Assembly: GCA_022562855.1 (NCBI GenBank)
Contig: JADFON010000066.1
Location: 1-8,203 of the forward strand
Direction: 5' to 3'
Source: Candidatus Zhuqueibacterota bacterium
GTDB taxonomy: Bacteria > SM23-31
DNA: 8,203 nucleotides
The first letter of the stretch is position 1. Each line of letters starts with the position of its first letter. Of this stretch, positions 3,121 to 6,769 are shown in pieces. A program made the position numbers and the translations under genes. The notes beneath the pieces are model-generated. The model had not been told where the DNA came from. It did not search any database and was given only the letters and a program-made list of their open reading frames with translations.

Positions 3121-3480
3121 TCAGCCTTTTATTGTCGCGTTCACCTTGCTGAGTAAAGTTTCCTTGTCGAACGGCTTGACAACATAATTATTCACACCAT
3201 GCTTCAGAGCTTCGACAACCTCTGTTTTCGCTCCTTCTGTGGTGATCATGATAATGGGAATGTCCGCGTAAACAGGGCTTTTCCGCAATTCCTTAACAAA
3301 GGTAAGACCGTCCATATTCGGCATATTCCAGTCGGTTAATACCAGTTCAACGCCGTCCATATTAGCCAGACCTTCCACACCGTCGCCTGCCTCAACAATA
3401 TCGTCAAATCCCGATGACTTGAGACTATTGATGATTATTCGGCGCATAGTAACAGAATCGTCAACAACAAGTACTTTCAT
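3121..3480 (-). CDS. cheY: CheY-like single-domain response regulator
   Basis: This 119-residue stand-alone receiver domain begins MKVLVVDDS, with acidic pair Asp7-Asp8 for Mg2+ binding. The phosphoacceptor Asp50 lies in TDWNMPNMDG (49-58), the switch Thr80 in IMITTEG, and the conserved Lys102 in VVKPF (100-104). DWNMP is a hallmark of chemotaxis CheY rather than a generic receiver. The start is placed at the ATG ending at 3480, preceded on the coding strand by AAGGGT about six bases upstream. A longer frame from a TTG ending at 3501 would only prepend seven residues ahead of the first beta strand. It uses a TGA stop (3121-3123), the only gene in the window ending in TGA, followed two codons later by TAA. 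First gene of a two-gene unit with cheX. Confidence 0.93.
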   Translation of the reverse strand: MKVLVVDDSVTMRRIIINSLKSSGFDDIVEAGDGVEGLANMDGVELVLTDWNMPNMDGLTFVKELRKSPVYADIPIIMITTEGAKTEVVEALKHGVNNYVVKPFDKETLLSKVNATIKG

Positions 3481-3527
3481 AGTTCTACCCTTCACGCTCA
3501 ATAAAACTACATTATGGTAAAAATAAA

Positions 3528-3590: not shown

Positions 3591-3758
3591 AATTCTTTAT
3601 TTTTCAATATTTGTATTCTAAATAGAGAATGCCAATAATAACACACAAAACAGATATTTCCATTTTTGATCATTTTTTAAGAACTTTTTATGTCTACAAA
3701 GAGTCTCAAATACAAAAGACGGAAAAGGATTGAATCAAATTCAAGAATTCTACGTATC

Positions 3759-3764
3759 TATAAT
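3759..3764 (+). promoter_or_regulatory. Possible -10 box (TATAAT) for the Asp-rich protein gene
   Basis: An exact TATAAT sits 28 bases before the start codon at 3793 and 16 bases before its GAGGTG ribosome-binding site (3781-3786). The predicted leader of about 20 bases is sensible. There is no good -35 hexamer at 16-18 bases. Instead an inverted repeat, TTGAAT-CAA-ATTCAA (3730-3744), ends 14 bases upstream, where an activator or repressor might bind. Confidence 0.35.
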
Positions 3765-3792
3765 AGTCAGACCATTGGAAGAGGTGTTTATT

Positions 3793-4515
3793 ATGAAATT
3801 CAATTATGCTTTAACAGGAATATTGGTCTTAGCGGTGGTATCCGTTGGACTGATTGATTGTTCTGCCCAGAATCTTCAAAAAAAGCGCGTTACCGGTGAT
3901 CCATCCTTCAGTTATGACAGTAAACGGGATATGACAAAAATAACCTACCCGGACGGCAGGACGATCAGGGTCAAAGGCAAGTGGGACGAAAAAGACGTGG
4001 AAAAACTGCACGAAACCATGCTCCGGTTAGAGGAACAATTGGAGAAACTCGAAGATATAGATATATATATTCCCGGCATTACTATTGACCTTCACGATCT
4101 TGACTTTCAACTGCACGATCTAAGCGACCTGATTAATGATGAGATTCTTGACGCGCTGCGGCATGAAGATTTTGAGGATTTTCATATAGAATTGGACGAT
4201 TTAGACTTCGATTTGTCACATTTGGACGATCTCAATTTTGATTTTGACATGTCTCATCTCGACGACTTTAATTTTGATTTCGATTTTTCCCATCTTGATG
4301 AAATAATAGGTGAATTGGAGCTTAAATTAGACGACATCGATGACATCAAAATTCGATTCCCGGAGCGCTTGTTCGACATTGTACCTCTTCGTGAGTTGAA
4401 TCTAAGGTTAAACGGTCTTCCCAATTTTGAGGAGCTGCTTGAAAATAACTTACGATTTTTCGATTGGGACCGCATGAGCGTTAAGGACAGAAAAAATAGA
4501 AAAATAAATCACTAA
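3793..4515 (+). CDS. Exported Asp-rich repeat protein of unknown function
   Basis: I do not recognise this 240-residue protein. The start is the ATG at 3793, preceded by GAGGTG six bases upstream and giving a clean signal peptide: Lys2, hydrophobic core to about residue 21, then a probable cleavage near CSAQ (23-26). An earlier TTG at 3730 would place 21 extra residues before the signal. The mature part begins with a basic stretch and a short YPDGRTIRV segment, then a likely coiled coil (about 60-85: KLHETMLRLEEQLEKLED). A strongly acidic region of D, L and F alternations follows. Within it are two adjacent 12-residue repeats, HLDDLNFDFDMS (143-154) and HLDDFNFDFDFS (155-166), with degenerate versions on both sides. 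The C-terminus is basic. It may be a periplasmic or surface cation-binding or adhesive protein, but that is speculation. Monocistronic: promoter-like sequence before it and a terminator after it. Confidence 0.8.
   Translation: MKFNYALTGILVLAVVSVGLIDCSAQNLQKKRVTGDPSFSYDSKRDMTKITYPDGRTIRVKGKWDEKDVEKLHETMLRLEEQLEKLEDIDIYIPGITIDLHDLDFQLHDLSDLINDEILDALRHEDFEDFHIELDDLDFDLSHLDDLNFDFDMSHLDDFNFDFDFSHLDEIIGELELKLDDIDDIKIRFPERLFDIVPLRELNLRLNGLPNFEELLENNLRFFDWDRMSVKDRKNRKINH
4219..4290 (+). repeat. Two tandem 36-base coding repeats (12-residue units)
   Basis: Units at 4219-4254 and 4255-4290 encode H-L-D-D-(L/F)-N-F-D-F-D-(M/F)-S. A partial third unit (HLDE) follows and a shorter relative (LDDLDFDLS) precedes. 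Many codons differ synonymously between units (TTG/CTC, GAT/GAC, TTT/TTC), so the amino-acid pattern is better conserved than the DNA. That argues for selection on the peptide and against a recent duplication. Confidence 0.8.
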
Positions 4516-4672: not shown

Positions 4673-4708
4673 AAAATTGAATTATATAATAAAATTGAAT
4701 TATATAAT
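4673..4708. repeat. Perfect 18-base tandem duplication upstream of the selenoprotein gene
   Basis: The unit AAAATTGAATTATATAAT occurs at 4673-4690 and again, identically, at 4691-4708. Its core AATTGAATTATATAA recurs at 6872-6886, ahead of the efflux adaptor gene. The location, 85-120 bases upstream of the start at 4794, fits an upstream promoter or regulator-binding region. No well-spaced -35/-10 pair is obvious. The rest of 4575-4793 shows only a small TCCGG...CCGGA hairpin (about 4646-4662). Confidence 0.6.
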
Positions 4709-4793
4709 AAATAAATTGTAACAGTATACTATGATTTGAGGCGCAGTAGAAGTTTCAGTTTAATTTAAAAGTTTCTAACGAAAGGTTTAAAAC

Positions 4794-6137
4794 GTGCGGT
4801 TTCTCAATAATCTATCAACCCGAAGGGATAAAAACCTGTTTTTGCGAAAATCTTTATTGCTTGCAGCCGCAGTAGCAGTATCGATGGGAGCTTACTCTGT
4901 TTTTGGGATTATTTCCTCATCGTTCGCCGGTGATCGCAGGCTCCCGGATGTTAGTGATTCGGAGGATAGCATAATCTGGATCAGGAGCTATGCAAGAGCT
5001 TTGGACGAAGCAAAGAGAACAGGCAAACCTATCTTTCTCGAATTTCGATGCGCGCCTTGACGCGCCGGCAGAGTATTTGATGCACAGGTTGTGCAGACCG
5101 ATAAAAATTCTCCCCGCGGTAAATTGTTATCGCAATATGTTACTGCCCGAATAACAAGTATGACGGGAATCGACATTGGACTATTCGATTATGACCGTCA
5201 TAACGCGCTGTATTATTTTATCATGAATGCCGATGAACACATTTATTTTCGGTATGGTGGGAGGGACGAGACCTCTCCAACCGCTTATCTCGATCTTTCG
5301 AGTATTGAAATAGCGCTGAAACTGGGGCTGGAGCAGCATACATTATACAATGAAGGAAAAATTGAAAAGCAGAAACGCTCCGATCCATTTTATCCAAGAT
5401 ATCTGTCATTGCTTAGAAGAGAGGTCATAGACCGCGGGCGATGTGTTGAATGCCACTTAATTGCAGATTTTGAGGCGCTGGAGAAGGAAATGCTTGGTGA
5501 ACTCAACAAGCTTGAGGACATGTACCTGTCGCCCGATATTAAAACCATCGGGATCCATCTTGATATTCCAAAAGGACTTGTTGTAAACAATGTGGACGGG
5601 GCTGTTAAAGAAGCCGGAATGGAACCGAATGACTTGATTGTTGGTTTCAACGGAACGCAGGTATTCACTTTTGGTGACTTTCAGTATTTTTATAATAAGA
5701 TTCCAAGAAATTCAGATCAGATACGGATTACGGTAGACCGTAATGGGGTCAATCGGGACCTTACGGTGACCTTGCCAAAGGAGTGGTGGTGGACCGACCT
5801 GTACCACCGGTACTGGTCCATTGAACCGATATTGTTTTTCAAAACAACACCTTTGACTTTAGATGAAAAGAAGAAACATGGTTTTAACCCGGAGGGGTTC
5901 GCAAGCACAGTAAACTGGGTTTATGAAGATGCGAAGAAGCGCGGATTTATTGATTTGAAAATCGGGGACATCATCTATTCGGTTGATGGCGTGGAAGTTG
6001 ACGAGTTGACCCGGAATTTCGAGACACACGTAAAGCTCAATACTACAGCGGGTGCGACCTTCACCTCATTGATTCTCAGGGACGGTAAAAGATTTGAAAC
6101 AAAGATTACTTCCGGCAGGCAGCGCTACCGAAAATAG
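4794..6137 (+). CDS. Exported CxxU thioredoxin-like / CxxCH / double-PDZ selenoprotein (in-frame UGA = Sec89)
   Basis: I read one 447-residue protein through the TGA at 5058-5060. GTG at 4794 is the first start after an in-frame TAA at 4788 and has AAAGG (4781-4785) eight bases upstream. Parts: basic N-terminus and long signal peptide, hydrophobic 20-45, likely cut after SSSFA (41-45). Then a thioredoxin-like segment, DEAKRTGKPIFLEFRCAPU (71-89), with Cys86-Ala-Pro-Sec89 after the expected beta strand and FDAQVV (95-100) after it. Then CVECH (217-221), a c-type haem or metal motif. Then two PDZ-like domains, about 252-328 and 366-440, separated by a Trp-rich WWWTDLYHRYW segment. Phase is conserved across the TGA and a SECIS-like hairpin follows it. 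From memory, related exported proteins in other phyla have Cys at this position (FRCxPC). Probable role: periplasmic thiol/selenol redox or peroxide chemistry, with the DsbD-alpha-like protein downstream. Alternatives: nonsense-mutated pseudogene or sequencing error. Confidence 0.82.
5058..5060 (+). other. Recoded UGA codon, predicted selenocysteine 89
   Basis: The codons around the site are TGC GCG CCT TGA CGC, that is Cys-Ala-Pro-UGA-Arg. The UGA is the only internal stop between 4794 and 6137, and reading frame is kept on both sides. It sits exactly where the second cysteine of a thioredoxin C-x-x-C site belongs. Cys-to-Sec replacement at redox positions is the commonest pattern in bacterial selenoproteins. 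Confidence 0.82.
5066..5100 (+). promoter_or_regulatory. Candidate bacterial SECIS element
   Basis: TGCACA (5081-5086), loop GGT (5087-5089) and TGTGCA (5090-5095) form a perfect six-pair hairpin; if the top A-U pair is open the loop is AGGUU. The loop starts 25-26 bases after the UGA, within the spacing known for bacterial SECIS elements. A G at the first or second loop position matches the SelB-recognition rule. It resembles the upper part of the E. coli fdhF SECIS, whose loop also contains AGGU. A weaker lower pairing, CGG (5066-5068) with CCG (5098-5100), is possible. Confidence 0.7.
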
Positions 6138-6196: not shown

Positions 6197-6769
6197 ATGA
6201 AAATCTTTAGATATATACTGTGCGCTATACTTTTCTTACAGGTTTCGGATCTTCTCGCGGGTCAATGGAGCGAGGCGTATGAGGTGATGTACAGGTTCGA
6301 CGTTATTGTAACGTACAAGGCTAAGTTGGACGGAGATGTTCTGCTGATCGAGGCAACCCATGCGTCTGAATGGCATACCTATTCAATGGACAATATTGAG
6401 CGGGCTCGCAAAAAATCGGGCAAGGAAGATCCTGAAACAGAACTTCCTACCCGGATTGAAATATCAGGCGGCTTGAAAGTATCCGGCAACTGGTATCAAA
6501 CAGATCCAATTGAACTCTCCCAACCTGAAATTCTATGGTATACCTGGGGATTTGAAAAAGTATCCCTCTTTGCTGTAAAAGTTGAAAGGACTGAGGGTGA
6601 AGAAGTAAAGATTACGATTAACGGGCAGGCATGCAACGCAACCCTCTGCAGTATGGTTGACGACGCAGCCATTTTATTACCACTCCCTTCGAAAGAAAAA
6701 TTTGCCTCTGAAAACAAATATTCTGCATTTGATTTTTCTTCGCTTGTTAAAGTCTTTCACACGAGATAA
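6197..6769 (+). CDS. Exported DsbD alpha-domain-like protein with CxxxxC
   Basis: This 190-residue protein opens with a signal peptide: Lys2, Arg5, hydrophobic to about 20, likely cleavage after DLLA (18-21). The mature part is a beta-rich single domain. The key segment is ITINGQACNATLC (139-151), in which Cys146 and Cys151 form the C-x4-C pair typical of the DsbD N-terminal / 'disulphide bond corrector' domain (Pfam PF11412, by recollection). The preceding GNWYQTDP (97-104) and the aromatic-rich strands also fit that fold. In DsbD this domain receives electrons from the membrane domain and passes them to periplasmic thiol proteins. Here it stands alone, without the transmembrane or C-terminal thioredoxin parts. 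It starts 59 bases after the selenoprotein gene with no terminator between, so co-transcription and a shared redox role are likely. No clear Shine-Dalgarno. The family assignment is moderately sure. Confidence 0.75.
   Translation: MKIFRYILCAILFLQVSDLLAGQWSEAYEVMYRFDVIVTYKAKLDGDVLLIEATHASEWHTYSMDNIERARKKSGKEDPETELPTRIEISGGLKVSGNWYQTDPIELSQPEILWYTWGFEKVSLFAVKVERTEGEEVKITINGQACNATLCSMVDDAAILLPLPSKEKFASENKYSAFDFSSLVKVFHTR

Follow-up and report, generated by a model that had tools for sequence, protein, structure and literature searches.

Locus and gene architecture

In the window, by which we mean the whole stretch of 8,203 nucleotides analysed here, a single reading phase extends across positions 4794–6137 of the forward strand, and its sole interruption is a TGA at 5058–5060, where the sequence reads C-A-P-U. 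Two open frames, 4794–5060 (88 aa, GTG start) and 5091–6137 (348 aa), share this phase with the TGA between them. Codon usage in the phase is gene-like 5′ of the TGA, 3′ of it, and also in the 30 nt from the TGA to the downstream GTG. This bears out the claim of an earlier note on this DNA that two in-phase frames are split by a TGA alone, at a Cys-Ala-Pro-U site. Homologues of the joined protein divide into clade A, which includes the window, and a Poribacterial clade B, a split with full support in the tree (midpoint root; some long branches). The features of the locus are as follows.

4780–4785, + strand: Shine-Dalgarno-like GAAAGG, by inspection, 5′ of the GTG start
4794–6137, + strand: gene for a predicted Trx7/PDZ selenoprotein of 447 residues, Sec89 included; starts with GTG, stops with TAG; NF041199 match
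4827–4931, + strand: hydrophobic N-terminal export signal or anchor segment (approximate), by inspection; modelled helix 10–37
4977–5153, + strand: Thioredoxin_7 domain, aa 62–120 (Pfam span at least aa 62–107)
5049–5060, + strand: predicted CxxU active site, TGC GCG CCT TGA = C86-A-P-U89
5058–5060, + strand: UGA predicted to be recoded to selenocysteine; TGA in 12 of 12 clade-A loci retaining the site, Cys codon in three clade-B homologues
5081–5095, + strand: predicted bacterial SECIS hairpin UGCACA-GGU-UGUGCA, with the GGU apical loop 26–28 nt past the UGA
5337–5339, + strand: His182, speculative candidate for a second haem ligand
5442–5456, + strand: C217-V-E-C-H221, the CxxCH motif, which may be a site for c-type haem
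5571–5774, + strand: PDZ domain 1, aa 260–327 (Pfam PDZ_2)
5904–6110, + strand: PDZ domain 2, aa ~371–439 (weaker HMM matches and AlphaFold model)
6197–6769, + strand: nDsbD-like putative partner of 190 aa with the redox cysteines C146-x4-C151; lies downstream of the selenoprotein gene at all intact clade-A loci

Thioredoxin_7 (aa 62–107) and PDZ_2 (aa 260–327) are above their Pfam cut-offs in the joined protein, which has two PDZ_2 stretches altogether; the second PDZ unit gives weaker HMM matches, and its strands and helices are confident in the AlphaFold model. In that model, built from 7 sequences, most of the thioredoxin/CxxCH part has a pLDDT of ~30–50 and was set aside. Solved structures with sequence kinship to the protein cover the PDZ regions only. 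The signal or anchor segment, and with it export, was assigned by eye from the sequence. Taken together, the Pfam domains, the model and a CxxCH that is invariant across the family agree with the thioredoxin, CxxCH and two-PDZ architecture that had been proposed.

Two other elements were observed in the window. An exported-looking acidic protein at 3730–4515 carries SHLDDLNFDFDM-type repeats and has no confident family, and a short AT-rich direct repeat, GAATTATATAATAAA twice, lies at 4679–4712, upstream of the selenoprotein gene.

Predicted selenocysteine at the in-frame UGA

The source genome, a fragmentary draft assembly that is 79.6% complete, contains a tRNA-Sec with anticodon UCA (TCA in DNA), adjacent selB and selA genes on contig C464, and a selD gene with one in-frame TGA (L016, G000:C359), which is likely a Sec-containing SelD. 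All the genes for which a search of the same genome had been suggested, selA, selB, selC (tRNA-Sec) and selD, are present. SelB is above the cut-off in six of seven homologue genomes, with a partial match in the seventh. Seven named relatives, from Poribacteria, Acidobacteria, Bryobacteraceae and Hydrogenedentota, were found by protein, and the rest of clade A came from phylum surveys. In all 11 other clade-A members that retain the site, the Sec codon is TGA and both flanks are conserved, and in L069, L071 and L087 a Cys is aligned to the in-frame UGA, giving CxxC. The homologues thus have Sec or Cys at residue 89, with conserved flanks on both sides, the pattern that the earlier note had proposed to look for.

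Mechanical ORF calls would divide the locus into two proteins, one an exported peptide of 88 aa and the other a PDZ protein with its start at GTG 5091. This reading is very improbable, as the thioredoxin domain and the coding signal continue across the TGA and the frame is uninterrupted at that site in the CxxC homologues. The fragmentary state of the assembly could also suggest a pseudogene or a sequencing error, in which a nonsense TGA splits a once-normal gene, but this is refuted by independent homologues with TGA: the codon is the same in all site-retaining clade-A relatives, which belong to several phyla, both sides are constrained, and the SECIS is conserved. As the TGA and both its flanks are kept in relatives from several phyla, a chance origin of the TGA can be ruled out. 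A general change of the code that makes TGA specify an amino acid (code 4 or 25) would account for an in-frame TGA but is practically excluded by a genome with tRNA-Sec, SelA, SelB and SelD, by the position of the TGA at a redox-Cys site with a SECIS hairpin next to it, and by a cheY-like gene of the window (3121–3501) in which TGA serves as an ordinary stop, so that there is no general code change.

The hairpin at 5081–5095 and the nDsbD-like neighbour at 6197–6769 had both been overlooked in the earlier note. In clade A, GCACAGGUUGUGC is identical in all sequences, synonymous sites included, and clade B carries stem variants with paired changes (GAACA/UGUUC, GGACA/UGUCC or GGGCA/UGUCC). Across 23 distinct sequences, 96.4% of the stem cells are paired, versus 84.9% in shuffles, and the 19 compensatory cells, in which both sides have changed, compare with 7.7 in shuffles, none of 500 shuffles being as high. 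Since kindred sequences can exceed shuffles, more weight falls on two other results, namely that sliding the stem partner by 1–3 columns destroys the pairing and that the hairpin is absent from all three CxxC homologues, which act as a natural negative control. When the window hairpin is folded alone, its stability is unexceptional (z 0.28), and the case for a SECIS is therefore built on the comparison across homologues. An Rfam search of the window and the SECIS region gave no relevant match. On the strength of the comparison, we conclude that the hairpin is a bacterial SECIS.

The sel genes, the tRNA-Sec, the covarying SECIS and the Sec/Cys exchange strongly support an exported selenoprotein with Sec at its redox site. 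As judged from these sequence data, 4794–6137 encodes a true selenoprotein, and the TGA had been read correctly.

Relation to a catalogued selenoprotein family

The joined protein matches NCBIfam NF041199 with 389.6 bits (cut-off 300), its residues 62–439 covering model positions 3–389 of 390. Architecture, CxxU motif and Sec are the same, and nothing essential differs. A 2026 review lists this family as "Trx7/PDZ domain-containing protein, NF041199, CxxU, 1 Sec" (PMC13188914), and a 2022 list has the entry "PDZ domain-containing protein, pfam13899, CxxU" (PMC9312934). The protein had been called undescribed-looking, which does not hold against a profile of the same architecture and two reviews that list the CxxU family. 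The 2026 review credits its entry to Zhang & Gladyshev 2008 (PMC2398784); judging by this citation, the table order and the motif, the CxxU "putative secreted serine protease MucD" of that paper is probably the Trx7/PDZ entry. The "MucD" family and the window protein have in common CxxU, a PDZ-related name, a predicted SECIS and Cys homologues, and the same family is probably also the pfam13899 entry of the 2022 list. The VPGUxxT thioredoxin-like (seleno)proteins NF041382 and NF041383 match weakly in the thioredoxin part (E 0.01–0.04) but differ from the window protein, since they are far under the cut-off, have another motif and match without the PDZ domains.

By these profile matches, the window protein is one more member of the catalogued, functionally uncharacterised Trx7/PDZ selenoprotein family, which is thereby confirmed in another lineage, now with a covarying SECIS. 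Among 6 genomes of its small phylum, the family is above the cut-off in the source genome only. No paper on selenoproteins in Poribacteria was found in a literature search of a limited collection. The nDsbD-like neighbour and the invariant CxxCH seem to be less documented in the literature than the family itself.

The nDsbD-like neighbour

An nDsbD-like orthologue lies 3′ of the selenoprotein gene in L048–L054, L064, L097, L099, L100 and the window, that is, in every clade-A locus that is intact in the sense that the match to the selenoprotein extends to the end of the gene. The exception within clade A is L065, which has a truncated selenoprotein match. The gene was not found in clade-B loci, in which short flanks were searched; as far as these flanks show, the pairing is confined to the window's clade.

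The motif Q144-A-C146-x4-C151 is invariant in the orthologues. Pfam DsbD_N matches six of seven relatives (best E 8.9e-6), and the window protein scores 19.6 bits with it (Pfam cut-off 25). Foldseek and VIA-align rank ScsB-N and nDsbD first (fold Z 7–9). The GAE/adaptin-ear fold scores near nDsbD, so that the identity of the partner stands on sequence, fold and the conserved Cys pair together. It resembles nDsbD and the ScsB N-terminal domain in its weak DsbD_N match, its fold and a conserved Cys pair late in the domain, but differs from DsbD in that it stands alone, without the membrane and C-terminal domains, and has a C-x4-C spacing. A search for a DsbD/CcdA-type membrane electron transporter (PF02683) found none in the 79.6%-complete genome. 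nDsbD is the redox partner of DsbC and CcmG.

The CxxCH motif and a possible haem

C217, C220, H221 and H182 are each invariant in all 42 homologue rows. One c-type haem may be attached at the CxxCH and link the redox site to electron transfer; alternatively, the motif may provide an extra thiol pair. If the protein were mainly a PDZ-cytochrome, the CxxCH would bind haem c and the Sec site would only keep apo-cytochrome thiols or aid haem attachment. The invariance of CxxCH and His182 is in line with this, as is the presence in the source genome of two proteins for cytochrome c assembly (PF01578), and CcmG is served by nDsbD-type proteins during cytochrome c maturation. MamP, which likewise joins PDZ and CxxCH (a magnetochrome) in one exported protein, gives a weak match; however, this match is confined to the PDZ region, and MamP is without a thioredoxin domain. 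Moreover, Pfam finds no cytochrome domain in the selenoprotein at E<=10, and a short invariant CxxCH occurs also at zinc or thiol sites. We consider a protein that is mainly a cytochrome possible but doubtful.

A bolder variant, which we regard as quite improbable, is a selenocytochrome, a periplasmic PDZ protein in which CxxU (or UxxU, in one Poribacterial subgroup) would share a single electron path with one c-haem. A stand-alone nDsbD-like carrier, working in the absence of DsbD, would either supply this path with electrons or receive electrons from it. If true, this would be a not-yet-described selenium-dependent periplasmic thiol relay.

Proposed mechanism

Coding, the SECIS, the Sec machinery, the operon-like pairing and the conservation of motifs are observed by sequence comparison. 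The reading that we prefer, and hold to be very probable, is a Sec-containing thiol-disulfide oxidoreductase of a known family, produced by SECIS-driven UGA read-through, that acts in the periplasm, binds clients through its PDZ domains and has the nDsbD-like protein as its partner. SelB with Sec-tRNA(UCA), bound to the SECIS hairpin, would insert Sec at UGA 5058–5060, if read-through takes place in this cell as it appears to, and translation would then run to the TAG at 6135. The mature protein would lie in the periplasm or on the outer face of the inner membrane. There, the CAPU thioredoxin-like site would form a selenylsulfide and swap electrons with disulfides, and the tandem PDZ domains, as their fold suggests, may grip clients or partners through C-termini or strands. 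Co-occurrence and fold point to the nDsbD-like protein as a dedicated redox partner, in the way that nDsbD serves DsbC and CcmG. The fixed nDsbD-like neighbour and the invariant CxxCH give a handle on Trx7/PDZ function.

Sec/Cys variation across the family

Across the family, the active-site pair varies only between Cys and Sec, as CxxU, UxxU or CxxC. It is C/U in the window's clade; in clade B, it is U/U in 25 rows, C/U in one and C/C in three. The double in-frame TGA, in FR-U-V-P-U-xx-C, was found in the Poribacterial survey in L066, L068, L070, L072–L086, L088–L090 and L092–L095. The reviews give only CxxU with one Sec for the Trx7/PDZ family, and UxxU is not listed (PMC13188914, PMC9312934). 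This range from CxxC through CxxU to UxxU makes the family useful for studying the gain and loss of selenium at redox sites. One of the CxxC homologues, L087, has a TGA within the first PDZ region, beside frame-shifted-looking sequence, and is probably a broken gene or an assembly error.
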